Both the position numbers and the translations under genes were made by a program. Positions 1 to 20,347 of a DNA stretch of 62,754 nt are shown piece by piece. The DNA lies in assembly GCF_900009265.2 (NCBI RefSeq), contig NZ_LR735023.1, positions 1 to 62,754 of the forward strand. The letters are read 5' to 3'. How positions within the stretch are numbered: position 1 is the first letter of the stretch; every line of letters begins with the position of its first letter. A model generated the notes under the pieces. That model was not told the origin of the DNA. It saw only the letters and a program-made list of their open reading frames with translations, and made no database searches. This stretch comes from Planktothrix paucivesiculata PCC 9631. GTDB taxonomy: Bacteria > Cyanobacteriota > Cyanobacteriia > Cyanobacteriales > Microcoleaceae.

Positions 1-195
1 GCCTTGTTGCTTACAAATAGCTAGGATATGGTCTATCCCAACGAATTTTGATTTCAATGTTCGACTAAAAATTGATTGTTCTGTTGGTAAGTAGAGTCCC
101 CGTACTCCGTCGAGTTTCGGTGAACTCCACCAACTCGAAACCCCATAGTTTTTGGTGGGATAGTAGGTATTTGCCAGTTGACAAGATAGTGCCAT
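1..195 (-). CDS. ATP-dependent DNA ligase, 5' part only
   Basis: An open frame starts with ATG at 195 on the minus strand and runs off the left edge without a stop (65 codons seen). Residues 25-33 read SPKLDGVRG, the KxDGxR nucleotidyltransferase motif I of ATP-dependent DNA ligases, with Lys27 as the expected AMP-accepting residue. Residues 44-48 (SRTLK) fit the following Ser-Arg motif. Ligases of this type seal nicks in double-stranded DNA and in bacteria are mostly carried by phages and plasmids. The gene diverges from the next one at 258, with about 60 bp between them. An RNA ligase or capping-enzyme relative is possible, since most of the protein is outside the window. Confidence 0.6.
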   Translation of the reverse strand, partial: MALSCQLANTYYPTKNYGVSSWWSSPKLDGVRGLYLPTEQSIFSRTLKSKFVGIDHILAICKQQG

Positions 196-257
196 TTTTG
201 TTGTCCTAAAAATCAACTTTATGATACGATAATACTATCAAATTACCAGGTAAAATT

Positions 258-1418
258 ATGGCTGCGGGGAAATTAAGTTTCACTCAAACTGAGTTTAGAA
301 TCCGAGAAGATGGAACTTATATTGGAGCTAAAGTTTCTGTTGAAAGAACTGAAGGAAATGTTGGATTAGTTAGCGTAAAAGTAACAAATAGTTCGGCTTC
401 TAGTTTGGGTCGTGCTACTCGAAAATTAGATTTTCTTCCAATTAATCCAACAACTTCTACTGGGAGTTCTCAATTATTAACTTGGGCTGATGGAGAGGGC
501 GGAATAAAAACCCTTGAATTTACTATTATTCAAGAAAACCTTGTTGAAGGAGACGAGTTTATTCCTTTGAGTTTAGGAAGTTATAAAGGCGGTGCGGTTG
601 CTGGTGAGATTCCTAAATGCAGCCTGATTATTGTTGATGATGATTCGGCTAAAGGTATTCAAGGTATTCAAGGAGAGAAAGGGGAAAAAGGGGAAGGAAT
701 AAGATGGAAAGGAGTTTGGCAATACGGCCCTTATCAAGTCGGGGATTTAGTTAGTTATTTTGACGCTGTTGAATGGGCGGTTTATATCTGTACTAATCCA
801 CCAGTAATTAACTATCCAATTGGATTAACCGAGGCAGATTATTCTGGTTTTGAGGACTCCAGCATTTTCCCTAATGTTTCCCCTAGTTGGGAATTGTTCT
901 GCAAGGGAGCAAATGGTCGGGATGGTCGAGATTACATAATGACCTTCAAAGGGGTGTGGAACCCAGAAACCCTTTATGTTCAAAGGGATGCGGTACTTTT
1001 TAATGGAAGTTCCTATGTTTGCATCAAAGAGAATGGCAGGGGACGTAACCCAGTTTCTGAACCTACTTTCTGGGCATTGGTGGCTCAAGGAACCCAGGTA
1101 TTTTTTGGTAGTGGATTTGCCACACTTAAAAAACATTTATTTGCCTGCCGAACCTCAGATACTGCTGGAGGCACGAGAACTTTCCCCCATGGTTTGAGTA
1201 GCTCCGGTGTTAAGGGTTATTCTGCCGTATTAGCAATGTCTGAACCTGTTGGACAGTTTGGATATGCGCCGCTAATTTTACCAGGAGGTTTCCGTACTCT
1301 ACCGGGATACTCTTACGATATTGCTGTTAATGATACCCACATTGTAATTGTTACTACTGCCTCGGATAGCTCAAAGATTCTCTCTAAAGAAGTCTTTGTG
1401 ACCCTTGACACTTTCTAA
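258..1418 (+). CDS. Calx-beta / collagen-like / carbohydrate-binding fibre-like protein
   Basis: 386 residues. Residues about 5-131 fit a Calx-beta-like domain: an N-terminal REDGT-type strand, a WADGEGGIKTLEFTI stretch, a VEGDEF segment and a closing IIVDDD. Residues 133-147 are a short collagen-like Gly-X-Y run. Two related Trp/Tyr-rich segments follow (about 148-180 and 228-260), each with the pattern KGVW...Y..GD.V.(Y/F)....Y.C typical of CBM5/12-like modules in tail fibres and chitinases. There is no signal peptide. It is the first of three plus-strand genes with short gaps. The architecture suggests a receptor-binding or surface fibre, possibly phage-derived. That role is inferred from domains only. 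Confidence 0.55.
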   Translation: MAAGKLSFTQTEFRIREDGTYIGAKVSVERTEGNVGLVSVKVTNSSASSLGRATRKLDFLPINPTTSTGSSQLLTWADGEGGIKTLEFTIIQENLVEGDEFIPLSLGSYKGGAVAGEIPKCSLIIVDDDSAKGIQGIQGEKGEKGEGIRWKGVWQYGPYQVGDLVSYFDAVEWAVYICTNPPVINYPIGLTEADYSGFEDSSIFPNVSPSWELFCKGANGRDGRDYIMTFKGVWNPETLYVQRDAVLFNGSSYVCIKENGRGRNPVSEPTFWALVAQGTQVFFGSGFATLKKHLFACRTSDTAGGTRTFPHGLSSSGVKGYSAVLAMSEPVGQFGYAPLILPGGFRTLPGYSYDIAVNDTHIVIVTTASDSSKILSKEVFVTLDTF

Positions 1419-1430
1419 TCCATTCTGTTG

Positions 1431-1453
1431 TCCCTAATTCTAGCTTTTAGGGA
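1431..1453 (+). promoter_or_regulatory. Small hairpin between fibre-like and membrane protein genes
   Basis: TCCCTAA (1431-1437) pairs with TTAGGGA (1447-1453). There is no T-run after it, so it is more likely a processing or attenuation hairpin than a terminator. An A-rich leader with repeated AATAACAAA-like units leads into the next ATG at 1490, which lacks a clear Shine-Dalgarno sequence. Confidence 0.3.
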
Positions 1454-1489
1454 TAACAAACCAATAACAAACTAATAACAAATAACATT

Positions 1490-2848
1490 ATGGCATTATT
1501 AACAGCAAAATATCTACAAAAGTTAAAGAGTCGGGTTGTTGATTCTGAGGATTCTAAGAATTGGTTAGGAAAAGATGTTTTGGAAATTCCCATTGATTTG
1601 TACAATCTCGTCAATAATGGGGTTAATAATTTTCCTCCCGCTAGGATATTAACAGGATTAACTGAACCAATATTAGAACCAATAAAACAAATAGCAGAAA
1701 AACTTTTAGCCCTTCCTGATATTGGAATTATGAGTGGATTATTAACCCTAGAAAGTATTTATGGAATCAACAAAGCCTACAATACAAAACTCTACAAGGG
1801 ACAAAATCTATTAGCTTATGCGAATAGTATTATGAATCGTGATATCCCATCTTCAGATGATGATTATTATTATATTATGGGGATTTCTGCTTACAATGAA
1901 ACTCTCAATATTCCCTTACTAAATACTCAGATAAATAGTCTTCAATCTCAAGTTGGAAATATTCAATCTCAAGCTCAATCAACAATAGATAGTTTTGAAT
2001 CTAAATTTGGCATTGATTATATTCAAGATAAAATTACTGAACTTGAAGGATTAATTTTAGAAGCCGGAGACAGTGCATCGTCAACTATTAAAAATCAACT
2101 CTATCGTCTCAGAAGTTTTGTTAAAAAATTTATGGGCATTAGTTCTAGTTCTCAATCAATACCAATATCAAGTTATGGGAGTTTTGGAGCAATTGAATTA
2201 ATAGTACCAACATTAACACCAAAGTTAGGGGATGTTATGGGGGTAATTAATCAGTTAGCAAATTGGTTCCTATCAATGTTTTCAATACCAAATCAAATCC
2301 TAGAAGTATTAACCCATACGGTGACATCGGTTGTTTGTAAGGCTATTGGTTCAGCAGGTGCAGAAGTTAGTCGGTATTTGTCGGCAGGACTATTACAATC
2401 TTTACCTCAATTAGTTCCTGCTGTTGGCTCGGCAACGGGAACTTTATTTGGTGGTGCGTGGGCAGTTCTAATGGCTTATGCTCCTTGGATTGCTTTGGTT
2501 GCAGGATTGATTCTGGTTGCCCTTAAATTAAGTGATAAGAAAGTTAAGTTCGGGAACCTTGTTTATCTTTTTGGAACTAGGTTGGGAGATTCTCCTGATA
2601 CTGGATTTGGCGTTACTTACGATATGAATGAAAAACAAATGAGAGATTATATTCTTGATTTTGCCAAACGAATGCTCAATGAATCTAAATCTAGTTATGT
2701 TAAATTTTGGGCATTTAATATCAATGATGATGAAGTTGCTCTAATGTTTGACTTAACAAATGTTAGTAATCCCATAGAAATAAATGATGAAACTTTTCAG
2801 AAAACTACCTGGGATTCGTTAAAAACTTTTGCAAGAGAACCATTCTAA
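1490..2848 (+). CDS. Unknown membrane-associated protein between fibre-like and DxDGD-protein genes
   Basis: 452 residues, family not recognised. Residues about 145-205 are coiled-coil-like and polar (repeated QSQ, ITELEG). A hydrophobic, Gly/Ala-rich stretch near residues 300-347 contains probable membrane segments (PAVGSATGTLFGGAWAVLMA, then PWIALVAGLILVALKL). The C-terminal 100 residues are soluble. The gene lies 71 bp after the fibre-like gene and 39 bp before the DxDGD gene, so the three are probably one transcription unit. In a phage-like setting a coiled-coil plus membrane-segment protein could act in DNA ejection, but nothing here proves that. Confidence 0.5.
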   Translation: MALLTAKYLQKLKSRVVDSEDSKNWLGKDVLEIPIDLYNLVNNGVNNFPPARILTGLTEPILEPIKQIAEKLLALPDIGIMSGLLTLESIYGINKAYNTKLYKGQNLLAYANSIMNRDIPSSDDDYYYIMGISAYNETLNIPLLNTQINSLQSQVGNIQSQAQSTIDSFESKFGIDYIQDKITELEGLILEAGDSASSTIKNQLYRLRSFVKKFMGISSSSQSIPISSYGSFGAIELIVPTLTPKLGDVMGVINQLANWFLSMFSIPNQILEVLTHTVTSVVCKAIGSAGAEVSRYLSAGLLQSLPQLVPAVGSATGTLFGGAWAVLMAYAPWIALVAGLILVALKLSDKKVKFGNLVYLFGTRLGDSPDTGFGVTYDMNEKQMRDYILDFAKRMLNESKSSYVKFWAFNINDDEVALMFDLTNVSNPIEINDETFQKTTWDSLKTFAREPF

Positions 2849-2887
2849 TTTCTATTAAATATTTCTATTAAATATAAGGAGGAGATT

Positions 2888-5533
2888 ATGCCCACACAAT
2901 TTGAGAATATAAAACTTAAACAAGATGGTACAGAAGGTCAAATAATAACAGTTTCAACTTTTTATGTTTGGGATTGTACGAACCAGAGGTTTTCAACCGC
3001 GCCACCAGTAGTTCTCCGTAATACAATGTTAGCGGCTTTATACCCTGACAAAAAGTTTATTATTGGGGAAATCCCTAAAACATCAACTAACGCAAGTTTA
3101 TTAGACCCTTTTAAAGTTCCTAATGTTTCTGATCCTTACTTTCTGGATTTAGCATCTAATAGTCGAACCCATGGAAGATTTTTATTTACTCCTAAAAGAA
3201 CAATTGGTAGAGATTATTTCCCTAGTAAAGATGATTGGAAACGAATAATTTATGGTTCAATTCTACATACCGGATGCAATAGATTATTTTATAGAGAAAT
3301 AAAATATATTGTTGTTGATGATGAACGAAGAAATCCCCAAACAAGTGAGCCTCAAGATGATGGAGTAAATGGAGTTCATTGGGATACAGGGGATTGTCAT
3401 GCAAAAGTTTCAAAAAGTCTCCTAACCCTATTAGAAAGCTGGGACACAGTTGGCAATGAAGATAACCCAAAAACAATTCAGATAAGAGCCGCAATTTTTA
3501 AAGAATGGACTATTAAAGGAACAGCAAGTCATTCATATAAGTTTGAGAATGATAATAGATTCAAAGGTTATGATTTAGTTATTCCCCTCTCTTGTTTTAA
3601 GGGTAATAAACCCGCACCTGGGAATTATACTGGTAAAGTTTTGATTGGGGTTGTGCATGAAGCTGAAGAACGGCGTGCTAAACCTGGTTGGATGTTATGG
3701 CAATGGTTTAGTTTTGAAACCCTTGAAGAAGATGGAATAATTAGTAAACTCCATGAGAAATGTCAGAAATTAAGCACTGCCCTTGATGATATTTATAAAT
3801 TAGCTGATGTTCTCCGAATAGACCTTGATGAAGCTGAACAAGAATTAGCCAACCTTGACGATAATCCTGATGCTGAAGTAGCTTATGTTGATTCGGTTCT
3901 CAAGATAATTAAAGCTGATAAAAAAGGGGTTTTAATTCTTCATCCTTATGTTTTATTAAAGGTTAAATTTAGACTTCGAGAGATGTGGAAAAACCTTGCT
4001 AAATCAGCCGGAGTCCGGTTTTATTCAGTTATGTGTACACCGGATACAAGTCTTGAAAAATATCAAAAACCCTATGGCAATGATTTTATTTTCAAGCCTA
4101 AAGTTTTTTGCTCACCAAGTTTTAATGAAGGTCAATATATCGTTTTCTGTAACCCGATGCGCCATTGGGGAGATGTTCAACTGTGGGAAAACTTTCATGA
4201 GGGTAGATTCCGAAATACTAGGGGAGTTTTAGCCGCGACTCGTGAACTTTTATTGAGTCTGGGGAGGGATACTGATGGAGATTTTATACAACTAATAAAT
4301 AGTAGTCGATATCCTAACTTAACGATGGCTTTATATGATATGGATTCGCCCCCAAAAGTTAAGAAGTTTCCCAAGGTTGCACTTACAGGAAGTCTTCAAC
4401 AGATTGCTATTAATTCAATGAATGATATTACCGGAGTTGTTGCTAGTTTGTTGGGTAGAGCTAGAGCTATTGGGGCTGAATTGATTGTTTTAGATATCCC
4501 AAAGGAAGGGGAAATGAGAATTATTGATTTTCTATCCCAAGAACTTCAAATAGCCGTTGATAGTTTAAAATCCGCTTATCCTAATAATCAAGATGGTCTA
4601 AAAGTTGTTAAGGATTTCCTAGATAAATCTGGTGCTGATATTCAATGGCTCAAGGATTTAAAATCTGATGATTGTTACCTTAACCGTCCTTGTCTTGTGA
4701 ATAACAATTTAACTGATACTGTTACTCGAATAGTAAGTTTAGTTAATAGTTATTGGCGATATCCTAATCTTGTCGAAGATACAACCCCAAAAGATTATAG
4801 ATTCACATTATTTTCTAATGTCATTAGTGATGAACTTCAAGATGCGATCGCACTACGGGAACGTGACGCTTATAGAGCCGAAATGGGTGCGGCTTTAGCT
4901 TATAAAAGAGACACTGAAGATGATAGATTAGTTAAAGAAGTTACGGCTAAATTTAAAGCTTCGACTGAAGTTATTTTGAGGGAAACTCTCAATCCGCTTA
5001 GAAAACCCTATCCTCCCAGGACTTGGGCAGCCGCCTACTGGAGAGCCAATCATTTAGCACAAAGTGGGACTGCGGGATTAGTTTTCTTGTTATTTTGTGA
5101 TGAGATTATTGAGGAACTAAAGAATTTAGAAAATAAAAAAGTTTGGTTAATAACAATTTATGCCGTTCAATTCACCCCATTTGCTCGTCCCCAGTTGAAT
5201 GCTTGGAATGGAGAAGAACTAACAGTTAGGAGTAGTTTTCTGAATGTTAATGGCAAGGATAAAGTTAGTTTAGAAGGGAAGTTTGATGGACAGCCTGGGT
5301 TTATTAATATGGGGCTTGTCAACGAGAAAGATATTGCTCAAGTTCCGAACGGTTGGACTGGTCGGGTTAAAATTTATGCCAAATCTTATGAGAACGACAA
5401 ATATCCCCGAAAGATGTCAGCTAATGATGTTTGTACAAGTCTTTATTGCTTTTCAGTTGATATGCTTCAAGAAGATATTGATGACTTTATGAATGATCAC
5501 TGGTCAAGTAGCAGTAGATTTAATCCCTTATGA
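2888..5533 (+). CDS. Candidate single-chain RNA polymerase-like protein with DxDGD motif
   Basis: 881 residues with a strong GGAGGAG ribosome-binding site just upstream of ATG 2888. Residues 422-427 read NPMRHW and residues 461-465 read DTDGD. In RNA polymerase beta-prime subunits a conserved RxPxxH stretch is followed about 30 residues later by NADFDGD, whose three Asp hold the catalytic magnesium. QDE-1/RDR and YonO proteins have the equivalent NP...DbDGD layout. Here PxxH to DxDGD spacing is about 35 residues. An upstream segment, near residue 238, reads PLSCFKGNKPAPGNYTGKV and could be the Lys-bearing first double-psi barrel. The C-terminus ends with DDFMNDHW...RFNP, which recurs in a fragment at 20.35 kb. 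The polymerase assignment is inferred from motifs alone; a non-polymerase protein is possible. Confidence 0.45.
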   Translation: MPTQFENIKLKQDGTEGQIITVSTFYVWDCTNQRFSTAPPVVLRNTMLAALYPDKKFIIGEIPKTSTNASLLDPFKVPNVSDPYFLDLASNSRTHGRFLFTPKRTIGRDYFPSKDDWKRIIYGSILHTGCNRLFYREIKYIVVDDERRNPQTSEPQDDGVNGVHWDTGDCHAKVSKSLLTLLESWDTVGNEDNPKTIQIRAAIFKEWTIKGTASHSYKFENDNRFKGYDLVIPLSCFKGNKPAPGNYTGKVLIGVVHEAEERRAKPGWMLWQWFSFETLEEDGIISKLHEKCQKLSTALDDIYKLADVLRIDLDEAEQELANLDDNPDAEVAYVDSVLKIIKADKKGVLILHPYVLLKVKFRLREMWKNLAKSAGVRFYSVMCTPDTSLEKYQKPYGNDFIFKPKVFCSPSFNEGQYIVFCNPMRHWGDVQLWENFHEGRFRNTRGVLAATRELLLSLGRDTDGDFIQLINSSRYPNLTMALYDMDSPPKVKKFPKVALTGSLQQIAINSMNDITGVVASLLGRARAIGAELIVLDIPKEGEMRIIDFLSQELQIAVDSLKSAYPNNQDGLKVVKDFLDKSGADIQWLKDLKSDDCYLNRPCLVNNNLTDTVTRIVSLVNSYWRYPNLVEDTTPKDYRFTLFSNVISDELQDAIALRERDAYRAEMGAALAYKRDTEDDRLVKEVTAKFKASTEVILRETLNPLRKPYPPRTWAAAYWRANHLAQSGTAGLVFLLFCDEIIEELKNLENKKVWLITIYAVQFTPFARPQLNAWNGEELTVRSSFLNVNGKDKVSLEGKFDGQPGFINMGLVNEKDIAQVPNGWTGRVKIYAKSYENDKYPRKMSANDVCTSLYCFSVDMLQEDIDDFMNDHWSSSSRFNPL

Positions 5534-5553
5534 TAACTGATACGGACACAAAA

Positions 5554-5637
5554 TTAACGTCCTTCACAGCCAATGCCATCTTTATCAGAATCAAAGTTGT
5601 GGGGGTCAGGAGTTTGTTGTTTGAGGAATACTTGGTT
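5554..5637 (-). pseudogene. Remnant of an Excalibur-type calcium-binding tail
   Basis: On the minus strand a 27-residue open stretch ends in PHNFDSDKDGIGCEGR followed by a stop. The DxDxDGxxCE pattern is the Excalibur calcium-binding motif usually found at the C-terminus of extracellular or thermonuclease-like proteins. A stop codon (5638-5640) precedes it in frame, so only the tail survives. It lies directly after the 881-residue gene, on the opposite strand. Confidence 0.45.
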
Positions 5638-5697
5638 TTATTGCTTTTTATAATAATATTTAACTGTTTGTTTCTAATCAATTAATTTCCCCCAGCA

Positions 5698-5740
5698 AGT
5701 AGGGAGTATTGCCATGTAAAAAATGAATATACTCCCTACT
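5698..5740. terminator. Bidirectional hairpin between convergent genes
   Basis: AGTAGGGAGTAT (5698-5709) is perfectly complementary to ATACTCCCTACT (5729-5740), giving a 12-bp stem and 19-nt loop. It lies between the convergent 881-residue gene and the RTX-like gene. TTTCTAATCAATTA occurs at both 5671-5684 and 5743-5756, so the hairpin is also framed by a short direct repeat. No other gene is seen in 5641-5900. Confidence 0.5.
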
Positions 5741-5900
5741 AATTTCTAATCAATTAACCTCCCTAGCGAGTATGGAGCCTAACCATACCTGCCGAGGTGG
5801 TGGAGATGAGTGGGATAATGTTAAATATCCTGACATCCCTATTCCTAATTTCCCCTAGTTCTGTACTTTCTAACTGATCGCCTTTCTAATGACAGCCACT

Positions 5901-7211
5901 TTATCCAAATTTGCTAATAAACTGAGATGCGTTATAGGTAGTACCATTTACCGCAAATAGTTCAACCCCTTTGATTGTCTGAGTCCAGGCATTAGATTGT
6001 CCAAAAGTATCAAAGTGATTGCCAAGATTGTCGGTTGTTCCACTAATCAAGACATCTCCGCCTGAATTGGTACTAACTATCACATTGGTCGGTTTTTGTG
6101 TGCTGGGATCGAGTTGGAAATAATCGATAATCAAGTTATCTTTACCCCTTCCACCGTCTACAGTACCTTGACCTGTCCCAACAGTGAAAGTGTCATCTCC
6201 ATTGCCACCAGATATTAGGGCATCTTTAATCCCAAAGTTAGTACCAGAAATATTAAGGGTGTCATTGCCATTGTCACCGCCTACAGATGACTGATACACC
6301 CCAATGCCTAGAGAGCTATCCAAATCCCGGAGTCGAATTTTAGCCTCACCAACACCAGATCCATATCGATAATTACCGTCAATCACTCGATTGAAAGCGG
6401 CAAAGATGTCATAATTAACAGGCCCTTCTGTATCGGCTTGACCGTTAAGACTATAAAGATAGGGTGAATCGAGACTACCTGATATTCCTGAGTTATTATT
6501 CCAAGCTAGAAACTCATCTTGAACAGTTAAGTTAACAGTGGAACCTTGACTCACCAAATCTGGTATAAGCTCCAATTGTGGGGATGGTGCACCATCGTGA
6601 GCCCAAATAAACAGGTCATTATAAATATTAGAAGAACCTATAACTCCTCCAATATTCAGTTCTGCATCATTGCTCTGAGTAGCCCCATCTCCACCAAAGC
6701 CGTTGTTCGTGCTTGAATCTCCAATATTGACCGTGATCCCAGTGGGTACTCCATCATATTGCACCTCAAATTCAGCAACATCATAGGGATTACTGGATGC
6801 TGGCCCAAGGTTGATCTTGAGAACTGTTTCAAGCCATCCATCATGATTAAAGTCTTCAGGGGGAGTGACAAAAGATAGGAATGGAGATGGAGGCAGAGAA
6901 GAAACATTATTTCTGAGATCAATTGTGTAGACAATATCGTCAGAACTGCTTCCAATACCAGAAATCTTGATAATATCATTCCCGTTATTGCCATTAAGAG
7001 TTGAGTTGTAAGCCCCATAACCAACTCCAGAGGCACCAGCTTTACCCATCAGCGTAATAGTATCAATGCCATTACCCGCATCAATCTGAGCGTTAAACGC
7101 ACCATAGGCTGTAGCACTCTCCGCATTCCCTGTCACTTGGCCAGAAAAGGTATCAGCTTTATTGGTGCCTAATAGAGTTCCTTGAAACGGTGATCCTGTA
7201 AATGTAGCCAT
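5901..7211 (-). CDS. RTX-like calcium-binding repeat protein
   Basis: 436 residues. Gly/Asn/Asp-rich nonapeptide-like units occur near residues 45-85 (GNGIDTITL, GNNGNDIIKI) and near residues 310-360 (GGDNGNDTLNIS, GGNGDDTFTVG, GGRGKDNLII). These resemble RTX repeats that bind calcium in secreted beta-roll proteins, normally exported by type I secretion through an uncleaved C-terminal signal. The N-terminal FxGTxxxDTFSG opening is common in cyanobacterial surface proteins. There is no N-terminal signal peptide. ATG 7211 has a GGAGGA ribosome-binding site. The gene is divergent from the cyanobactin cluster and convergent with the 881-residue gene. A second, smaller RTX-like gene is at 32.3-33.1 kb. 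Confidence 0.65.
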   Translation of the reverse strand: MATFTGSPFQGTLLGTNKADTFSGQVTGNAESATAYGAFNAQIDAGNGIDTITLMGKAGASGVGYGAYNSTLNGNNGNDIIKISGIGSSSDDIVYTIDLRNNVSSLPPSPFLSFVTPPEDFNHDGWLETVLKINLGPASSNPYDVAEFEVQYDGVPTGITVNIGDSSTNNGFGGDGATQSNDAELNIGGVIGSSNIYNDLFIWAHDGAPSPQLELIPDLVSQGSTVNLTVQDEFLAWNNNSGISGSLDSPYLYSLNGQADTEGPVNYDIFAAFNRVIDGNYRYGSGVGEAKIRLRDLDSSLGIGVYQSSVGGDNGNDTLNISGTNFGIKDALISGGNGDDTFTVGTGQGTVDGGRGKDNLIIDYFQLDPSTQKPTNVIVSTNSGGDVLISGTTDNLGNHFDTFGQSNAWTQTIKGVELFAVNGTTYNASQFISKFG

Positions 7212-7591: not shown

Positions 7592-9565
7592 ATGCTAGAT
7601 ACATTACATACTATCTCCCAAGGAGATAGCAGTATTTGTGTGGCTGTTTTGGATGGGCCTGTTGATCAAGCTCACCCTTGCTTCCAAGGCGCAAACCTTA
7701 CCTATCTGCCCACATTGGTGCAAGAAGCCGCTAAAGTTGATGGCAGTATGTCCATGCACGGAACTCACGTTGCCAGCATTCTCTTTGGGCAACCCGGTAG
7801 CCCCGTTCAGGGAATCGTACCTCAATGCAAAGGCATTATCATACCTATTTTTGCCGATGACCGTCGCCGAACTTCCCAGCTAGATTTAGCTCGGGGAATC
7901 GAGCAAGCCGTTCATGCCGGAGCCCACATCATCAACCTCAGTGGGGGTCAACTCACTGACTTTGGTGAAGCCGATGGCTGGTTAAAAAATGCTGTTCGTT
8001 TGTGCCGAGAGAATAACGTCTTGTTAGTGGCAGCAGCAGGCAATAATGGTTGCGAGTGTTTGCACGTTCCGGCAGCTTTACCGTCAGTGCTGGCCGTCGG
8101 GGCAATGGATGCCCAGGGGAAACCCCTCGACTTTAGCAACTGGGGGGAAGCCTACCAAACTCAAGGCATCCTGGCTCCAGGGGAAGATATTCTGGGAGCC
8201 AAAGCTGGGGGGGGAACCCACCGATTAAGTGGAACCAGTTTGGCTACTCCTATCGTTTCTGGTGTCGCTGGGGTATTACTCAGCCTTCAACGGGAACAGG
8301 GAGATTCCCCCGACCCCCAAAAAATTCGTCAAATTTTGTTGCAGAGTGCTTTACCCTGTGACCTTGACTTGCCAGAAGAAAGCCGGCGGTGTCTGGCGGG
8401 CAAACTCAATGTCTCTGGAGCAATCACGTTACTAAAAGGAGAAAAAATGGCCGAGGAATTTTCGTCTGTTGCGGCATCAGAAGTAACAGCAGCAGGTTGT
8501 GGTTGTGGAGGCACATTAAGTGCTACCCCCCAAGAGCAAACGGCTCCTAGCTTAACTGCTGTGGCTTCCAGTCCATCGGCTGGGGCTGTCCCCAGCGACA
8601 CTCCCAACTTAAACAACTTAATTCAATCATTCCCTACTGCTGTAACTCAACAACCAACTATGCCCAACTTCACTGCTAATTCCGTTACTGCCAGCCAAGC
8701 TCCTAGCGAACTCGCCGAGATGGGTCAGCTTGTTTATGCTCTAGGAACCCTTGGTTATGACTTCGGCACAGAAGCTCGTCGCGACTCATTTAAACAACTC
8801 ATGCCTCCCTTTGATTTAGGTGGAGGACTCATGGTTCCGGCGAACCCCTACGATGCCCGTCAGATGGTGGACTATCTAGGGGAAAACATCTCCGAGGCGC
8901 GATCGCTGATTTGGACATTAAACATTGAACTGACTCCGGTTTATGCGATTGATCCGGCTGGCCCCTTCGCCGCCGAGTCCTACCGCGCCCTTCAAGAACT
9001 CCTGGCGGGTCAAATCCAACCGGAAAACGATGGCGAATATGTTGAACGGGTGAGTATCCCCGGTATTTTAACTGGACGTAAGGTTAAACTCTTCTCCGGT
9101 CAAGTCATCCCGGTCATTGAACCCCAAAGCACCCGTGGTCTCTACGGTTGGAAAGTCAATAACCTGGTCAGCGCAGCGATGGACGCGGTACAAGCTGAAG
9201 ATGGCACTGCCGACGAAGAAACGATCCGCAAAACCTTGGATGGCTTCCTCAACCGCATCTACTACGACCTCCGCAACTTGGGAACCACTTCCCAAGACCG
9301 CGCCCTCAACTTCTCCGTTACCAACGCCTTCCAAGCTGCCCAAACTTTCAGCCAAGCGGTAGCCGTTGGCATGGAACTCGATAGCATTACGGTAGAGAAA
9401 AGCCCCTTCTGCCGGATCGATAGCGACTGCTGGGATGTGAAGCTGAAGTTCTTCGACCCGGAAAACAGCCGCCGTGCCAAGAAGATTTACCGCTTTACCA
9501 TTGATGTCAGCGATCTAATTCCTGTCACCCTCGGCGAAGTTCGTTCTTGGTCTTCTCCCTACTAA
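7592..9565 (+). CDS. patA: PatA-type subtilisin protease of the cyanobactin cluster
   Basis: 657 residues. The subtilase (S8) domain covers about residues 1-275, with Asp21 (VAVLDG), His56 (MHGTHVA) and Ser216 (SGTSLATP) as the catalytic triad. After a low-complexity linker (about 290-370), residues 380-657 form the C-terminal domain shared with PatG proteins, starting at VYALGTLGYDFG. PatA proteases cut the precursor at the recognition sequence before each core peptide, freeing the N-terminus for macrocyclisation. It heads a co-directional run of nine genes. All catalytic residues are present and the length matches the family. The C-terminal domain is close to that of the PatG gene (19.25-20.1 kb). 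Confidence 0.92.
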   Translation: MLDTLHTISQGDSSICVAVLDGPVDQAHPCFQGANLTYLPTLVQEAAKVDGSMSMHGTHVASILFGQPGSPVQGIVPQCKGIIIPIFADDRRRTSQLDLARGIEQAVHAGAHIINLSGGQLTDFGEADGWLKNAVRLCRENNVLLVAAAGNNGCECLHVPAALPSVLAVGAMDAQGKPLDFSNWGEAYQTQGILAPGEDILGAKAGGGTHRLSGTSLATPIVSGVAGVLLSLQREQGDSPDPQKIRQILLQSALPCDLDLPEESRRCLAGKLNVSGAITLLKGEKMAEEFSSVAASEVTAAGCGCGGTLSATPQEQTAPSLTAVASSPSAGAVPSDTPNLNNLIQSFPTAVTQQPTMPNFTANSVTASQAPSELAEMGQLVYALGTLGYDFGTEARRDSFKQLMPPFDLGGGLMVPANPYDARQMVDYLGENISEARSLIWTLNIELTPVYAIDPAGPFAAESYRALQELLAGQIQPENDGEYVERVSIPGILTGRKVKLFSGQVIPVIEPQSTRGLYGWKVNNLVSAAMDAVQAEDGTADEETIRKTLDGFLNRIYYDLRNLGTTSQDRALNFSVTNAFQAAQTFSQAVAVGMELDSITVEKSPFCRIDSDCWDVKLKFFDPENSRRAKKIYRFTIDVSDLIPVTLGEVRSWSSPY

Positions 9566-9670
9566 GGAGCCGCACAATTTTAGTGAGAGTGCAATATTAG
9601 ACCCCACTCTCACTAGGAGATGCAGATGTGTTCAGTTAATTAATACTCTCCATAGGGAGAATCCTAAACT

Positions 9671-9922
9671 ATGCGACTTCCTCTATTATCTCCCCCGATT
9701 GAACGTCCCCATTTCATCCAGCCAGGACTGTGCGTGGATCTAGAAAATGGTCGTCCCGAAGATTTGGTGCATATTCGGATGGATCTGCTCCATGCCGCTA
9801 ACTATAACGATCCTCCAGCCTTTGCTAACCGTAGTTTCAACCAAGTGATGCACTCTAGTGCCAGCCAGAGTTCAGCCAGCCCTGGCTGGGGCGGTTTTGG
9901 CAGCATGGGAGGATTCTATTAA
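9671..9922 (+). CDS. patB: PatB-family cyanobactin cluster protein
   Basis: 83 residues. The opening MRLPLLSPPIERPHF and the body LENGRPEDLVHIRMDLLHAA fit the small PatB/AcyB/McaB family that lies between the A and D genes of cyanobactin clusters. The C-terminus is Gly/Ser-rich (GWGGFGSMGGFY). Its biochemical role is not established, and the homologue is dispensable for heterologous cyanobactin production in the patellamide pathway. It lies 105 bp after the protease gene. Confidence 0.8.
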   Translation: MRLPLLSPPIERPHFIQPGLCVDLENGRPEDLVHIRMDLLHAANYNDPPAFANRSFNQVMHSSASQSSASPGWGGFGSMGGFY

Positions 9923-9974
9923 TGGGCTGCTAATCACGCGATGCCTCAGCCAACCCTAAACATCCAAGGACACT

Positions 9975-10217
9975 ATGAGCAAGAACAAAACCACAACAAC
10001 ATCCTCGGAAGTCCCCTCTAACCCTGAACTGACCCCGCCTGAACCAAGCAAGTCTGAACCAACGACGATCGCAACGCCTGAACCCAAAAAGTCTTACGTT
10101 CCCACTTCCCAGACCGGGCTGCAAGATTATTCCTACTGGTGCCAATACGTCAAGGATCAAGCCAAGAAATCAGACAAAGACCCTAAATCCTTCCGGCGCG
10201 GTCGCATCTGGGCTTAA
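9975..10217 (+). CDS. patC: PatC-family cyanobactin cluster protein
   Basis: 80 residues. It has a Thr/Ser/Pro/Glu-rich, probably unstructured N-terminal half (residues 5-45). The conserved tail is TGLQDYSYWCQYVKDQAKK...FRRGRIWA, fitting the PatC/TenC/TruC family found only in cyanobactin clusters. Function is unknown. It sits 52 bp after the B gene and 55 bp before the D gene. Confidence 0.8.
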   Translation: MSKNKTTTTSSEVPSNPELTPPEPSKSEPTTIATPEPKKSYVPTSQTGLQDYSYWCQYVKDQAKKSDKDPKSFRRGRIWA

Positions 10218-10272
10218 CCCCTAGCTGCTGCTGGTCTTGTTATCGTCCACTTAATCACTGACTGTTCGTTCT

Positions 10273-12600
10273 ATGCAATCCACCCCACTGCTCCAAATTC
10301 AACCCCACTTTCATGTCGAGGTGATCGAGCCAAAGCAAGTTTATCTCCTTGGCGAACAGGCTAACCATGCCCTGACTGGACAGCTTTACTGCCAGATTTT
10401 GCCCCTCTTAAATGGGCAACACAGCCGTGAGCAGATTGTCGAAAAGCTGGATGGGGAAGTCCCAGAAGAATACATCGACTATGTACTGGAGCGCCTCGCT
10501 GAGAAAGGTTATCTGACTGAGGCAGCCCCGGAACTGTCCTCGGAAGTGGCGGCATTTTGGAGCGAGTTAGGGATTGCACCTCCGGTTGCTGCGGAAGCTT
10601 TACGGCAGCCTGTAACCCTAACCCCTGTGGGCAACATCAGTGAAGTGACGGTAGCAGCCCTGACAACGGCTCTGCGGGACATTGGTATTTCCGTGCAGAC
10701 CCCAACGGAAGCAGGTTCTCCAACGGCGCTCAACGTCGTCTTAACCGATGACTATTTGCAGCCCGAACTCGCCAAGATTAATAAACAGGCACTAGGGAGT
10801 CAACAAACTTGGCTACTGGTCAAACCTGTAGGCAGTGTGCTGTGGCTGGGGCCTGTGTTTGTTCCGGGCAAGACGGGGTGTTGGGACTGTCTAGCTCATC
10901 GGCTACGGGGCAACCGGGAAGTGGAGGCATCGGTGTTGCAGCAAAAACAAGCCCAGCAGCAACGCAATGGTCAGTCCGGTTCTGTAATCGGTTGCCTGCC
11001 TACCGCACGGGCAACCTTACCTTCCACCCTGCAAACGGGGCTACAGTTCGCGGCAACTGAGATTGCTAAGTGGATTGTCAAGCACCACGTCAATGCCACT
11101 GCACCGGGTACTGTGTTCTTTCCCACCCTCGATGGCAAGATTATCACCTTAAACCACTCAATTTTGGACTTGAAAAGCCATATCTTGATTAAGCGATCGC
11201 AATGTCCAACCTGTGGCGATCGCCAGATTTTGCATCGGCGAGGATTTGAACCCCTGAAGTTGGAGTCGCGCCCCAAGCACTTCACCAGCGATGGCGGTCA
11301 TCGAGGCACCACTCCCGAACAGACGGTGCAGAAATACCAGCACTTGATCAGCCCGGTGACGGGAGTCGTGACAGAACTGGTGCGAATCACCGACCCAGCT
11401 AATCCCTTGGTACATACCTACCGGGCGGGGCATAGCTTCGGCAGCGCCACCTCCCTGCGGGGTCTGCGGAATACTCTGAAACACAAGAGTTCTGGCAAAG
11501 GCAAAACCGATAGCCAATCTAAGGCTAGTGGGTTGTGTGAGGCAGTGGAACGCTATTCCGGTATCTTTCAGGGAGACGAACCCCGCAAACGGGCAACCCT
11601 GGCAGAACTGGGAGACTTGGCGATTCATCCTGAGCAGTGTTTGTGCTTTAGCGATGCCCAATATGCTAACCGGGAAACCCTAAACGAACAGGCAACAGTG
11701 GCTCACGATTGGATTCCCCAGCGCTTTGATGCGAGTCAAGCCATTGACTGGACTCCGGTGTGGTCGTTAACAGAGCAAACCCATAAGTATCTGCCGACAG
11801 CCCTGTGTTACTACCACTATCCCTTACCCCCAGAACACCGCTTCGCCAGAGGTGACTCCAACGGAAATGCCGCAGGCAACACCCTGGAAGAAGCCATTCT
11901 GCAAGGGTTTATGGAACTGGTGGAGCGCGACGGTGTGGCGCTGTGGTGGTACAACCGCTTGAGGCGTCCGGCAGTGGATCTGGGCAGCTTTAACGAGCCG
12001 TATTTTGTCCAGTTGCAGCAGTTCTACCGGGAAAACGATCGCGATTTGTGGGTGCTGGATTTAACAGCAGACTTGGGTATTCCCGCTTTTGCAGGGGTGT
12101 CGAATCGGAAAACCGGAAGCTCGGAACGACTGATTCTCGGCTTTGGGGCGCACCTCGACCCGACTATTGCTATTCTCCGCGCCGTCACAGAAGTAAACCA
12201 AATTGGCCTGGAACTCGATAAAGTCCCAGATGAGAACCTGAAAAGTGATGCAACAGATTGGTTAATAACTGCGAAACTGGCGGATCATCCCTATCTCCTC
12301 CCTGATACCACACAACCCCTCAAAACAGCCCAGGACTACCCCAAGCGTTGGAGTGATGATATTTACACCGATGTGATGACCTGCGTAAACATTGCTCAAC
12401 AAGCGGGTTTAGAAACTTTGGTAATTGATCAAACCCGACCGGATATTGGGCTGAATGTGGTTAAGGTGACAGTGCCAGGGATGCGCCATTTTTGGTCACG
12501 GTTTGGGGTGGGTCGGCTCTATGATGTCCCGGTGAAACTGGGATGGCTAGATGAACCGCTCACTGAGGCACAGATGAACCCCACACCGATGCCATTTTAA
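10273..12600 (+). CDS. patD: PatD-type YcaO cyclodehydratase
   Basis: 775 residues. The N-terminal part (about 1-310) is the leader-binding and E1-like region with zinc-type cysteine pairs (CWDC near 207, CPTCGD near 314). The C-terminal part (about 350-775) is the YcaO domain, with ATP-binding segments EAVERYSG and GNTLEEAILQGFMELVERDG. It ends in PTPMPF, the Pro-rich C-terminus typical of YcaO cyclodehydratases. The enzyme uses ATP to convert Cys (and in some relatives Ser/Thr) of the core peptide to azolines while bound to the leader motif LAELSEEAL. The core here contains only Cys as a heterocyclisable residue, so thiazolines are expected. Confidence 0.93.
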   Translation: MQSTPLLQIQPHFHVEVIEPKQVYLLGEQANHALTGQLYCQILPLLNGQHSREQIVEKLDGEVPEEYIDYVLERLAEKGYLTEAAPELSSEVAAFWSELGIAPPVAAEALRQPVTLTPVGNISEVTVAALTTALRDIGISVQTPTEAGSPTALNVVLTDDYLQPELAKINKQALGSQQTWLLVKPVGSVLWLGPVFVPGKTGCWDCLAHRLRGNREVEASVLQQKQAQQQRNGQSGSVIGCLPTARATLPSTLQTGLQFAATEIAKWIVKHHVNATAPGTVFFPTLDGKIITLNHSILDLKSHILIKRSQCPTCGDRQILHRRGFEPLKLESRPKHFTSDGGHRGTTPEQTVQKYQHLISPVTGVVTELVRITDPANPLVHTYRAGHSFGSATSLRGLRNTLKHKSSGKGKTDSQSKASGLCEAVERYSGIFQGDEPRKRATLAELGDLAIHPEQCLCFSDAQYANRETLNEQATVAHDWIPQRFDASQAIDWTPVWSLTEQTHKYLPTALCYYHYPLPPEHRFARGDSNGNAAGNTLEEAILQGFMELVERDGVALWWYNRLRRPAVDLGSFNEPYFVQLQQFYRENDRDLWVLDLTADLGIPAFAGVSNRKTGSSERLILGFGAHLDPTIAILRAVTEVNQIGLELDKVPDENLKSDATDWLITAKLADHPYLLPDTTQPLKTAQDYPKRWSDDIYTDVMTCVNIAQQAGLETLVIDQTRPDIGLNVVKVTVPGMRHFWSRFGVGRLYDVPVKLGWLDEPLTEAQMNPTPMPF

Positions 12601-12660
12601 GTTTTTTTAAAGTTTAGGGCCGACTTGCTTTCACTACATAACAAATGTCGTCCCAGTAGG

Positions 12661-12704
12661 CTTCTTCTCCAGGAAGAAGGGGACTGACCCACCCCAACGG
12701 GTCA
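12661..12704 (+). promoter_or_regulatory. Two tandem hairpins upstream of the precursor gene
   Basis: CTTCTTC (12661-12667) pairs with GAAGAAG (12673-12679) over a 5-nt loop. TGACCC (12685-12690) pairs with GGGTCA (12699-12704) over an 8-nt loop. They lie in the 136-bp gap between the cyclodehydratase gene and the precursor. A position just 5' of a small, highly expressed ORF suits mRNA-stabilising or processing hairpins that raise precursor expression. That function is inferred. An AGAGGA ribosome-binding site precedes ATG 12737. Confidence 0.45.
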
Positions 12705-12736
12705 ATAAACCAAACAACAAAAAGAGGATTATTCTC

Positions 12737-12985
12737 ATGGATAAGAAAAACATCCTGCCCCACCAAGGCAAACCCGTACTCCGTAGCACCAACGGTAAAC
12801 TCCCCAGCCACTTGGCTGAACTGTCTGAAGAAGCGCTCGGTGGTAATGGTGTGGATGCGTCTATGTGCCCCTGCGTCTGCTCCTACGACGGTGTGGATGC
12901 GTCTATGTGCCCCTGCGTCTGCTCCTACGACGGTGTGGATGCGTCTATGTGCCCCTGCGTCTGCTCCTACGACGGTGATGAGTAA
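12737..12985 (+). CDS. patE: Cyanobactin precursor peptide with three MCPCVC cores
   Basis: 82 residues. The leader carries the cyclodehydratase recognition motif LAELSEEAL at residues 26-34. Three identical cassettes follow, each GVDAS (protease site) + MCPCVC (core) + SYD (macrocyclase recognition, completed by the next Gly). The cores are residues 43-48, 57-62 and 71-76. The peptide ends DGDE. All core cysteines are at even positions including the last, as in patellamide/tenuecyclamide-type precursors, which places an azoline at the macrocyclisation point. Predicted product: cyclo(Met-Thz-Pro-Thz-Val-Thz). The core has no Ser, Thr or Tyr. The opposite strand also has an open frame here, but that is a by-product of the repeat. 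Confidence 0.95.
   Translation: MDKKNILPHQGKPVLRSTNGKLPSHLAELSEEALGGNGVDASMCPCVCSYDGVDASMCPCVCSYDGVDASMCPCVCSYDGDE
12848..12973 (+). repeat. Three perfect 42-bp tandem repeats encoding the precursor cassettes
   Basis: Units 12848-12889, 12890-12931 and 12932-12973 are identical at every base, including silent positions. Each encodes 14 residues (protease site, core, macrocyclase site). Perfect DNA identity indicates recent amplification or ongoing homogenisation rather than long divergence under protein-level selection. Confidence 0.95.
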
Positions 12986-13030
12986 TCTAGCGTGTCTCAA
13001 TAGCATGGCGTTTCATCGTCTTTGCCTTGA

Positions 13031-13150
13031 GACTACACCGAGCTAGATAGCCAGATAGAGATGAGGTTAAAGATTGATAGACAGCAATCAGAATCTTTTC
13101 TAGAGCTTGCGTTTTGATATCTTCCTCATCTCTGTCACGCCGATGTAGTC
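13031..13150 (+). promoter_or_regulatory. Large nested stem-loop downstream of the precursor gene
   Basis: An inner arm GATAGAGATGAGG (13054-13066) pairs with CCTCATCTCTGTC (13124-13136) as a 13-bp stem with one G-U pair. An outer arm GACTACACCG (13031-13040) pairs with CGATGTAGTC (13141-13150) with one mismatch. The structure fills most of the 257-bp gap between the precursor and the first prenyltransferase-like gene. There is no T-run, so it is better read as an mRNA 3'-stabiliser or partial read-through barrier that would give more precursor than enzyme mRNA. That role is inferred. Confidence 0.55.
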
Positions 13151-13242
13151 TGTTACGTTAATCCTTATTGAATCACGATGATTGATTCGTCGGGTTCTAT
13201 AAAAACCTTCTGCCTGCTTAACTGTTACTTAGGAAAAAGACT

Positions 13243-14181
13243 ATGGCTCTAAATTCTTCATTGCAACAAATCAACTTACGGGAGCGTCGTCTTCAGTTTA
13301 TCCGAACTCATCTAGATGCTTTTGATGTTGAGCCAACTTTCCCTATCCCTCTTTTTGAACAGGCAGTTTTTGAGATAGAAGGTTCTTGTGGAATTGAATC
13401 TTCTTGCAAAGTTGAAAATGATAGGCTATTTGCAGGATGTTTTGATGTTTCAAACTATGGAGATGTTTCTTGGCCAGGATCTTTGAAATATGCACTCAAA
13501 TTCTTAGATAGAGTTGAAAGTAGAGTAAACGTCAAATTCAACCGTGACTTGCTTCAACAGTTTGCATCATTACACATTGATTCTAGAAAGATTCTTGATA
13601 GTAGTGTTGGACTCCACTTAGATCCAAAACTTGAGAATTCTGTTGTAAGGATATATCTTCATATTAAACCAGAAGAAGATCCTGAAGAATTAGTGAGAAC
13701 AGCGATCGAGATTGATGGTAGCCACTACCCAATTGAATTGTTACAAGTTTTGCTTAAAGATGTGATAATTATTGGATTCAATCTCTTTTTTGACGGTTGC
13801 AGTGATGTAGAACTCATGGCTGGTGATTTAGGCAAGGAATATAGAGGTAATAATCAGCGCGGTAGGGCTTTTGCTACATACGCACAAAAAATCTTTTCTA
13901 AAAAAGTTATTGCTCTTTATAAAGCTTCTGATATTTTTTTTGTAAGCTTTTCTAAAATAAGAGAATATCCATTTTTGTATTTTCAGTTTAATGATATTAA
14001 AGAACTTAAAAAGCAGTTTTCGTTTAATAGCCTGGGAGATAGAATATACGGCTTTTGTCAGAATCAAGATTGTATTGCCTACGCTGCTGTCGGTGTCAAA
14101 GAACAAGATTTAGAAAGTAGCAGATTAGAGAATTTTCATTTCTCTTATAATCAACATGATGGATGCAAACCTCATCCATAA
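13243..14181 (+). CDS. patF: PatF/TruF-family prenyltransferase-like protein, copy 1
   Basis: 312 residues. The opening RRLQFIRTHLDAFDVEPTFP, the FNRDLLQQFASLHID and SRKILDSSVGLHLDP segments and the SLGDRIYGFCQ stretch match the LynF/TruF/PatF family, whose ABBA-type fold transfers dimethylallyl groups to Tyr, Ser or Thr, or to peptide termini, in cyanobactins. PatF itself lacks detectable prenyltransferase activity, so activity cannot be assumed. The next gene is a clear paralogue with the same motifs. Base composition is more AT-rich than in the neighbouring D and G genes. The gene starts about 30 bp after a strong A-rich leader; ATG 13243 is preceded by TAGGAAA. Confidence 0.82.
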   Translation: MALNSSLQQINLRERRLQFIRTHLDAFDVEPTFPIPLFEQAVFEIEGSCGIESSCKVENDRLFAGCFDVSNYGDVSWPGSLKYALKFLDRVESRVNVKFNRDLLQQFASLHIDSRKILDSSVGLHLDPKLENSVVRIYLHIKPEEDPEELVRTAIEIDGSHYPIELLQVLLKDVIIIGFNLFFDGCSDVELMAGDLGKEYRGNNQRGRAFATYAQKIFSKKVIALYKASDIFFVSFSKIREYPFLYFQFNDIKELKKQFSFNSLGDRIYGFCQNQDCIAYAAVGVKEQDLESSRLENFHFSYNQHDGCKPHP

Positions 14182-14263
14182 CATTGATTTTTGTTAAAAA
14201 TGAGTTTAATATTCCGCAATTTACCTTGACTATCATCCTCAAAGAATCCCGTCCTGAAACACT

Positions 14264-15184
14264 ATGCTTCAAAATATTCAAAATAATCGGTTCAAAGACC
14301 GCCCTATTGAGTTTATCCGATCTCATCAAGAGGCTTTTGATGTTGAGCCAATCTTCCCTATCCCTCTTTTTGAAGAGGTAATTCTTGAGTTAGAAGGTGT
14401 ATTTAGTGTTAAACCCTCTTGCAAAGTTGAAGGTAGCCGACTGCTAGCAGGGCGTTATGAGACTGGTATTCTCCCTATGAGAAAAACTTGGCCCCAATTG
14501 CTAACTCATACGTTTAAGTTCTTGAATAAAATCGAGAGTCGGGTGGGTGTATGTATTAATCGTGAATCGTTTGAGCAGTTTGCAGCAGTACATATTGGCT
14601 CTGACAAAATTATGGATAGCACGATTGGCGTTCACTTGGGGTCAAAGCTGGAAGATTCCAGTGTAATGATGTATATCCATTTTGACACGGAGCAAGATTG
14701 TGAAGAATTAGCAAAGACAGCGATCGCTCTTGATGGGGGTCACTACTCCGATGAATTAACACAGGTTCTGATTAGAGATATGGTCGTCATCGGTTTTGAA
14801 CTTTTCTTCGATGGTCGCAGTCATGTGGAGCTATGTCCTGTTGCTCCAGCACAGCCTGGAGCATTAGGAATCAGAGGAAAGTATCTTACCCCCTACATCC
14901 AAAAATACTTTTCACAGAAGGTGAATTCCATTTTCAGAGGATCGCACCTCCTCAAAATATGCTTCTCTAAAGCCTATGCAACACCAGTTTTAGGGTTTTA
15001 CTTCAAAAACCTCAAAGACATACCAAAATATTTTAGGTTTAATAGCTTAGGTGATAGGATTTATGACTTTTGTCAAAGTCAAAGTTGTATCATGGTTCCT
15101 GCTGTGTTTGCTACAGAGGCAGAGTTAGAAAAGAGTCGATTAGAAAAGTTTGATTTTTACTACATTCGATGGGAAGAATGTTAA
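14264..15184 (+). CDS. PatF/TruF-family prenyltransferase-like protein, copy 2
   Basis: 306 residues, collinear with the preceding gene (RPIEFIRSHQEAFDVEPIFP, CINRESFEQFAAVHIGS, SLGDRIYDFCQ). Two F genes in tandem also occur in the trunkamide-type (TruF1/TruF2) clusters. This copy has a longer loop near residue 190 (CPVAPAQPGALGIRG). It begins 82 bp after copy 1. One copy may have lost catalysis and serve as a chaperone, as proposed for PatF. Which one cannot be told from reading alone. Confidence 0.82.
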   Translation: MLQNIQNNRFKDRPIEFIRSHQEAFDVEPIFPIPLFEEVILELEGVFSVKPSCKVEGSRLLAGRYETGILPMRKTWPQLLTHTFKFLNKIESRVGVCINRESFEQFAAVHIGSDKIMDSTIGVHLGSKLEDSSVMMYIHFDTEQDCEELAKTAIALDGGHYSDELTQVLIRDMVVIGFELFFDGRSHVELCPVAPAQPGALGIRGKYLTPYIQKYFSQKVNSIFRGSHLLKICFSKAYATPVLGFYFKNLKDIPKYFRFNSLGDRIYDFCQSQSCIMVPAVFATEAELEKSRLEKFDFYYIRWEEC

Positions 15185-15293
15185 CCGCATCCGGTATTTT
15201 GATTTTTTTGAAAATGACTCTCCCCCTCTCCCCGTCTCCACTTTAATTATAATGATTGAAAATAACCTGATATCAGGCTCAAGAAGTAAGACT

Positions 15294-16097: not shown

Positions 16098-16186
16098 CTC
16101 AAGCAATCCGTTAAAAATTAAGACAAATTTCACCAATTGCTGTTTTCATTGCTCCACCTATTTAATACCGTTTCTTATTATTAATC

Positions 16187-20345: not shown

Positions 20346-20347
20346 AT

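Follow-up and report, generated by a model that had tools for sequence, protein, structure and literature searches.

The gene P0001, at positions 2888–5533 of contig NZ_LR735023.1 (C128 in our numbering) of the cyanobacterium Planktothrix paucivesiculata PCC 9631, encodes a protein with an RNA-polymerase-like signature, which raises the question of what this protein does and which genes it would serve. The DNA analysed, referred to as the window, comprises bases 1–62754 of this 87,291-base contig, 62,754 nucleotides (nt) in all; the contig ends do not overlap, so circularity is not supported. We consider it likely that P0001 belongs to a family of single-chain two-barrel RNA polymerases of cyanobacterial plasmids and some phages, which would transcribe an array of small genes from a dedicated promoter of about 30 bp. 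More broadly, we lean towards the view that cyanobacterial plasmids and related phages run a private transcription system, in which a single-chain polymerase related to those of RNA interference (RNAi) would work with a compact promoter family whose lineage dialects have diverged along with it. We think that the promoter-like signal is the main result, and one beyond what an earlier note on the window, which had pointed to the polymerase signature, could see.

A signal upstream of small genes on clade-A elements

Across 194 genomes of the phylum, a profile search not selected by sequence pattern found the polymerase family in 22, at 30 loci including the P0001 gene and its near-copy. Five clades are well supported in the family tree. 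Clade A contains the P0001 gene (support 100/100), clade B is that of Pseudanabaena, clade C comprises Nostocales and relatives (about 1,050–1,340 amino acids, aa), clade D has members of 1,160–1,625 aa, and clade V consists of phage contigs with one relative. In clade A, small genes form an array around the operon holding the polymerase and are usually encoded on the strand opposite to it.

The upstream signal was first noticed in a Phormidium yuhuli plasmid, where identical stretches of 13–15 bases precede several array genes, and close variants were found elsewhere, spaced consistently from the start codon. In clade-A plasmids the signal covers about 30 bp before the start codons of the array and reads GCTAYCGC-N10-TGnTGTTTT, with a conserved second block 10 nt downstream of the core. 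A 36-column position weight matrix (PWM) built for it has the consensus ..a..GCTATCGCtt...ga...TG.TgTTTtt.... and matched 100 of 1437 candidate starts in 22 clade-A loci, with sites in 20 of them and none in L013 and L005; this count comes from the same 22 loci on which the matrix was trained, and some of the loci belong to one plasmid. Twenty shuffles gave a mean of 1.05 and a maximum of 3 matching starts, and 77 of the 100 sites were located 25–31 nt before the ATG, where 20–42 nt was allowed.

Clean tests were provided by Planktothrix, scanned at a threshold of 9 bits with a matrix trained without Planktothrix, and by genome G064. On the window's own contig the Planktothrix-free matrix matched 8 of 200 starts, every one of them minus-strand; seven of these are at 68–87 kb, and one weak match lies inside the window:

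203–238, minus strand: promoter-like site 27 nt before the ATG of a ligase gene, weak match (9.5 bits, Planktothrix-free matrix)

The same matrix matched 6/23 starts on contig C103 of this genome, which carries a 97%-identical polymerase copy cut by the contig end, 1/9 on C29 and 0/11 on C182. Around two distant paralogue loci it matched 0/24 and 0/28 starts; more distant paralogues of the polymerase are found on contigs C137 and C6 of this genome. In two P. rubescens plasmids, 4 of 45 and 3 of 39 starts were matched.

The signal is restricted to elements with a clade-A enzyme. When the strict pattern GCTAYCGC-N10-TGNTGTT was counted in the 194 genomes, at least three matches were found in six (8 in G072, 7 in G000, 5 each in G116 and G127, 4 in G064 and 3 in G118), and all six belong to the set of ten that have a clade-A enzyme (p = 3e-9), at an identity of 41–100%, against 31% or less in the other genomes. 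Their 32 strict matches were concentrated on the polymerase's contig (28), with 24 lying within about 52 kb of the polymerase and four more on C128 at 62–81 kb in linear coordinates; of the remaining four, three are on G000 contigs other than that of the polymerase, and one, in G064, is 1.3 Mb distant. Among the 184 genomes without a clade-A enzyme, ten have a single strict match and none has more.

The matrix matched little around the other clades. Matches were obtained at 54/495 starts on the elements of G064, G116, G072, G127 and G030, against 0/1147 around clade C, 3/967 around clade B, 1/243 around clade D, 3/479 around clade V, 1/473 around L091 and L096, 0/118 in Bacillus YonO phages, 0/71 in G119 and 1/194 in G039. 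The matrix used here was that from all 22 loci, and the 54/495 set partly overlaps the training set. Loci L310, L311, L313 and L315 lie on elements already represented in training, in part with the same sequence. De novo searches of Pseudanabaena (W05) and Nostocales (W06) plasmids gave no convincing signal.

Dialects of the signal and its probable reader

The wording of the signal varies between lineages. Eight-letter words upstream of starts were compared with the whole sequence, with uncorrected p values and related loci counted apart. The first-ranked word was GCTATCGC in clade A (p 5e-13) and GGCTAACG in the clade-V phages (p 7e-14); in Planktothrix, GCTACCGC was near the top (p 7e-17) and a spaced form of GCTACCGC came first. 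The C_many and L096 sets were left out of account, because overlapping upstream regions there made counts exceed the total and gave p of 0 for some words. Other plasmids have GCTGTCGC, GCTTCGCT, GTTTTCAC or CCTATCGG as their dialect words. As plasmid lineages have their own dialects, enzyme and promoter seem to have diverged in step.

The clade-V form of the signal consists of GGCTAACGCC and, about 9–10 nt further on, a TGA-like block; none of the 194 genomes has more than two copies of it. The clade-V contigs G197, G199 and G201 are tailed phages, with a portal gene, terminase matches of E 1.5e-83 or better and major head matches of E 1.6e-8 or better. The strongest argument for linking the signal with the polymerase is that, when 495 ORFs (open reading frames) from seven plasmid elements were compared with 336 from four phage contigs, several of these elements being covered in part, the polymerase was the only family matched across all of them.

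We propose that the P0001 product would read the small-gene array from the signal, with transcription starting within about 30 nt. The operon that holds the enzyme would probably first be read by the host polymerase, because in seven clade-A loci checked no matrix site was found within 400 nt before the upstream membrane gene. Same-strand sites lie 2–6.5 kb before the polymerase in L020, L025 and L090, and in clade V the signal is located 167–253 nt before the polymerase in five of six loci (not in L095). With a signal before the enzyme gene in clade V, and perhaps in a few plasmids, the enzyme may thus boost its own expression.

In the main rival explanation, it is the host RNA polymerase, together with a factor of the host or the plasmid, that reads the signal, or the signal serves as a repressor operator or 5' untranslated region element; the two-barrel enzyme would then do other work. 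The extended -10 element of bacterial promoters reads TGnTATAAT, which TGCTATCG loosely resembles, and the spacing between signal and ATG would be appropriate for a short leader; the clade-V phages, moreover, carry a sigma-70 region-2 protein. The core, however, contains CG, the dialects alter A/T positions (GCTTCGCT, GCTGTCGC, GTTTTCAC), and the second block is conserved in addition. A signal read by the host is also at odds with the near absence of the strict pattern from genomes without a clade-A enzyme and with the lack of any other protein family common to the plasmids and phages in the parts compared. We therefore regard this explanation as unlikely and favour reading of the signal by the family's own enzyme. 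The sigma-70 region-2 protein, encoded on the minus strand at 4264–4923 of L093 and kept in six loci, might serve the host or the phage polymerase.

Several results weigh against transcription of the array by this enzyme. In the reverse-complemented upstream regions, the matrix gave 10 matches and not 1, which also favours the host-read alternative. With the Planktothrix-free matrix, 0/35 starts were matched in L013 and 0/65 in NIES-204 (L005), in the parts of these elements covered. The word test gave nothing comparable in L016, L017, L013, L005, L090 or G119 taken alone, though the matrix nonetheless finds 1–3 sites in L016, L017, L090 and L010, and it gave no comparable signal in clades B and C. 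Four clade-A genomes have fewer than three strict matches: G030 (0) and G039 (1), which carry the variant signals TGCTACCG and GCTTCGCT, respectively, G119 (0), whose polymerase gene is split, and G131 (0), whose polymerase is on a 7-kb contig. As the tree does not settle the order among the clades, the GCTAnCGC common to plasmids and phages could have arisen by convergence or come from an ancestor. Finally, P0001 searched alone matched no Pfam family at E up to 1, and its sole matches in the PDB were weak and unrelated.

The predicted polymerase and its relatives

The 881-residue ORF that the earlier note had described, which starts with ATG, was confirmed, and the motifs NPMRHW, DTDGD and FKGNK lie at residues 422–427, 461–465 and 237–241 as claimed. 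The relevant features are:

2888–5533, plus strand: P0001, predicted single-chain two-barrel RNA polymerase, 881 aa (motif conservation, Pfam and PDB profile matches of relatives, ratio of nonsynonymous to synonymous substitution rates, dN/dS)
3479–3523, plus strand: Q198–T212 (QIR...KGT), conserved stretch within the presumed first barrel; Q198, K210, G211 and T212 invariant in 34/34, QxR part aligned to plant RDR2
3596–3610, plus strand: F237–K241 (FKGNK), presumed catalytic lysine region of the first barrel; S235 and K238 without variation, G239 and K241 conserved at 90% or more
4151–4168, plus strand: N422–W427 (NPMRHW), start of the presumed second-barrel motif; P423 invariant, family profile aligned here with NPCLHPGD of plant RDR2
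4268–4282, plus strand: D461–D465 (DTDGD), presumed metal-binding triad; invariant in the 34-member alignment and in 27/27 survey loci that cover it
4547–4570, plus strand: Q554–K561 (QIAVDSLK), second conserved motif after the triad; Q554, D558 and K561 invariant, aligned with low score to QVAVDRQK of P23-45 gp64

The family alignment consisted of P0001 and 33 members picked from 78 genome-contig loci and 9 viral-contig loci. D461, D463, G464 and D465 are invariant in these 34 homologues, down to 21% identity, but the locus scans that fed the alignment used DxDGD-containing patterns (D[TF]DGD), so it is biased and cannot show conservation of this motif. The profile survey is free of that selection: DxDGD is found in the longest frame at 26 of its 30 loci and in the stop-interrupted frame of L118, and the other three loci do not cover the region. 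The conservation of the aspartates among homologues, which the earlier note had proposed as a check, was thus borne out at every covering locus, and the signature is more than a chance resemblance. The other residues invariant in the alignment are Q198, K210-G211-T212, S235, K238, G245, P423, N435, Q554, D558 and K561, and the first-barrel motifs QxR..KGT..SxxKGxK and the later QxAVDxxK are kept across the family. Catalysis would be carried out by Asp461, Asp463 and Asp465 on a metal, together with first-barrel lysines near residues 210 and 238–241. These basic residues lie upstream of the triad in the same chain, and we take K210, K238 and K241 to be the equivalents of known catalytic lysines, a view that has partial support from the span of the L091 alignment described below. 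Purifying selection was evident in four of five comparisons (dN/dS 0.10–0.17); in the fifth, dS was saturated.

The family very likely belongs to the two-barrel (double-psi beta-barrel) RNA polymerase superfamily, and the polymerase reading is supported by motif conservation, by matches to the Pfam family of eukaryotic RNA-dependent RNA polymerases (RdRPs), by profile matches to RDR2 and by the gp64 alignment. PF05183, the eukaryotic RdRP family, was matched by 13 of the 34 members at E up to 1, with a best value of 9.5e-10. L091 scored 38.2 bits (cutoff 23.8) over residues 145–490, across both presumed barrels; in the 194-genome survey this cutoff was passed by four loci, whose DFDGD context marks them as clade-C type, and narrowly missed by the G030 clade-A enzyme, at 21.5 bits. 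Against the PDB, the family profile matched plant RDR2 at E 3.6e-4, aligned from NPxxHxGD through DxDGD, and gp96 of phage P23-45 only at E 0.7. Among PHROGs, eight of the 34 members matched phrog_4291 ('RNA-dependent RNA polymerase'), and P0001 itself had a strong match to phrog_34895 (E 9e-71), whose function is unknown. A match to a beta-prime domain was obtained for one of the 34 members, at E 0.16. Because of these 13 matches against one, the family looks closer to the eukaryotic RdRP and single-chain side than to beta-prime. The polymerase-like signature claimed by the earlier note is thereby upheld in its conserved motifs, and of the two likenesses that it had drawn, to beta-prime subunits and to QDE-1/YonO single-chain polymerases, the resemblance leans towards the eukaryotic RdRP and single-chain side.

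The RNAi enzymes are the best Pfam and solved-protein match of the family and have the same NPxxHxGD followed by DxDGD; they differ in that the present genes are carried by bacterial plasmids and phages and in that P0001 itself falls below detection. Their likeness raises the alternative of an RNA-templated enzyme, either an RNAi-like RdRP or a primase that makes primers for plasmid replication. An RNase H domain fused to a member (L049, E 1.1e-32) and a family-A DNA polymerase gene, named by reading the sequence, near some Leptolyngbya-type loci (cluster 20, nine loci) would fit such a role. However, another replication gene, VapE, is present in at least one clade-A plasmid, and a strand-oriented signal before genes fits transcription. 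The single-chain phage enzymes of the same fold that have been studied transcribe DNA, according to the available portions of PMC5467207 and PMC10770324. We consider an RNA-templated enzyme or primase improbable, and a DNA-templated transcriptase remains our preferred reading.

Single-chain two-barrel polymerases are a known class in phages, and the accessible text of PMC10770324 proposes promoters for the two enzymes of P23-45, a Thermus phage: mapped starts and chromatin immunoprecipitation sequencing gave an AT-rich motif for gp96 and a GC-rich motif for gp64, and phages without one of these enzymes also lack its motif. Both enzymes are single-chain and two-barrel, as predicted for the P0001 family, with gp64 aligning at DxDGD and AVDxxK and gp96 at DFDGD, and the pairing of an enzyme with its own motif follows the same logic as the restriction of the clade-A signal. 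The pairwise scores are weak (E 0.026 and 5e-4), yet in the gp64 alignment (E 0.026) DxDGD and QxAVDxxK both pair; the P23-45 enzymes also differ in belonging to a phage and not to plasmids. Their motifs, known here by description only, are AT-rich and GC-rich. Just as P23-45 has two different enzymes, Pseudanabaena plasmids have two side by side: a longer relative (about 1,450–1,630 aa where whole, with DFDGD in one that was read) lies upstream of one of 788 aa. At L007 1251–10224, the two polymerases are of 1629 and 788 aa, with three small genes between them.

YonO of the Bacillus phage SPbeta is likewise a single chain of similar size with two predicted barrels and DxDGD, and a gene for HU adjoins the polymerase in both systems: yonN lies beside yonO in phi3T, and of 23 clade-A loci, 15 have an HU gene on the same strand no more than 1.3 kb downstream of the polymerase, the Planktothrix loci not being among them. 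One of the clade-A HU proteins has a weak GYF match. The profile comparison between YonO and the family is weak (hhalign E 7e-4, probability 26%), and the YonO profile found no credible match in the 194 cyanobacterial genomes, this one included, the one match at E 0.0035 containing stops. The comparison by hhalign with phi14:2 gp77 (2180 residues, taken as gp66 of the literature) gave no match. In the part of Forrest et al. 2017 (PMC5467207) that is available, YonO-like proteins are said to occur in the main genomes of many cyanobacteria, and the YonO promoter sequence and possible helper factors are left open. The earlier description of a poorly described family in cyanobacteria is thus fair for P0001, with the class itself already known there. 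Relatives of YonO and RdRPs on mobile elements, the NCGL1702-like polymerases, are described in the accessible part of PMC7824862 and are akin to this family by that description only. The available text of PMC7281927 places eukaryotic RdRPs closest to a group of phage enzymes, and a 2024 dendrogram (23 in it), as far as the excerpt of PMC10770324 goes, unites phage and plasmid single-subunit enzymes with the RNAi enzymes in one clade.

No description of this plasmid polymerase family, its signal or its dialects was found in the literature searched, which was judged by titles and the beginnings of abstracts and included few subscription papers; within it, plasmid carriage and promoter dialects look new. 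Single-chain two-barrel polymerases may resemble the enzymes from which all cellular RNA polymerases descend, and little is known of how such enzymes locate promoters; here a candidate promoter, the genes it would serve and its natural dialects, as well as sister clades that lack the signal, are all accessible from sequence. If correct, the pairing of enzyme and promoter would be a plasmid trait over many cyanobacteria, with dialects to compare, where the accessible literature has so far proposed it for one Thermus phage. It would also allow many 'hypothetical' plasmid genes to be grouped and reveal an unexpected layer of plasmid gene control.

T7-type single-subunit RNA polymerases consist of one polypeptide and use a short dedicated promoter with lineage-specific dialects. 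The proposed system would resemble them in its working, with an unrelated polymerase fold, and could provide a T7-like tool for orthogonal expression from an unrelated enzyme.

A tblastn search with P0001 matched 55 plasmid records, and the 40 listed are all cyanobacterial and annotated as 'hypothetical protein' or not at all. Among the matches listed, the closest named relatives are on plasmids of Planktothrix agardhii and P. rubescens, mostly at 91–93% identity and one at 80%. In 50,697 phage records, tblastn found no relatives of P0001 at E 1e-5, and none of L095 were found at E 1e-3. The member with RNase H, at L049 4838–9712, has 1625 aa with that domain in its C-terminal part, and the stretch before it reads by eye like a SLOG domain.

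The element and the neighbours of the polymerase gene

The window begins with three neighbours of the polymerase gene, and a remnant of the gene lies further on:

1–195, minus strand: ATP-dependent DNA ligase, first 65 aa, cut by the contig start (64% identity over 59 aa to the L016 ligase, which has Pfam ligase domains)
258–1418, plus strand: fibre-like accessory protein, 386 aa (collagen-like stretch, weak CBM5/12 match, tail-fibre PHROGs)
1490–2848, plus strand: 452-aa protein with a membrane-like segment, directly upstream of the polymerase (phrog_34545; homologue in clade-A loci)
20345–20416, plus strand: 24-residue remnant of the polymerase C-terminus, 75% identical (similarity to the polymerase)

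The fibre-like and membrane-segment genes are present as the earlier note had reported, and so is the ligase, in its truncated form. Homologues of the membrane-segment gene, some cut or split, are located no more than 105 bp upstream of the polymerase in 17 of 23 clade-A loci. The fibre-like family occurs in nine loci at varying positions and strands, with a relative in L018 that has a Calx-beta domain.

This neighbourhood had suggested to the earlier note a phage that packages its polymerase into the virion. In favour of such a virion-packaged enzyme are the fibre-like gene adjoining the polymerase neighbourhood, three clade-V relatives whose contigs hold terminase and head genes, and L096, a more distant relative, whose contig has a terminase match. 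However, matches to phrog_38 and phrog_1357, the terminase and head families of the clade-V phages, were found in none of five complete clade-A plasmid records and in all three clade-V phage contigs tested, and the fibre-like gene is no constant neighbour (nine loci, both strands). We did not rely on phrog_2, a terminase family, as it missed or barely found the clade-V terminases. The packaging suggestion was not borne out for this element and is very improbable, and we keep to a plasmid-borne enzyme that would act on its own array.

A sigma-70 scan of positions 1–6000 was uninformative, with 24 sites where shuffles gave 19.8. Some 2 kb past the polymerase gene, a cyanobactin-like cluster spans 7592–20104 (PatG-type protease, YcaO, DUF5838 and PatG with oxidase), and the polymerase remnant lies just past it, as if the cluster had recombined in beside or between polymerase copies. 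An in-frame triplicated repeat (VVGADAGAHRRIHT) is found at 12614–13006 in a minus-strand ORF, and among the large minus-strand ORFs is one at 34639–40038 for an 1800-aa protein with a C-terminal FtsK/SpoIIIE domain.

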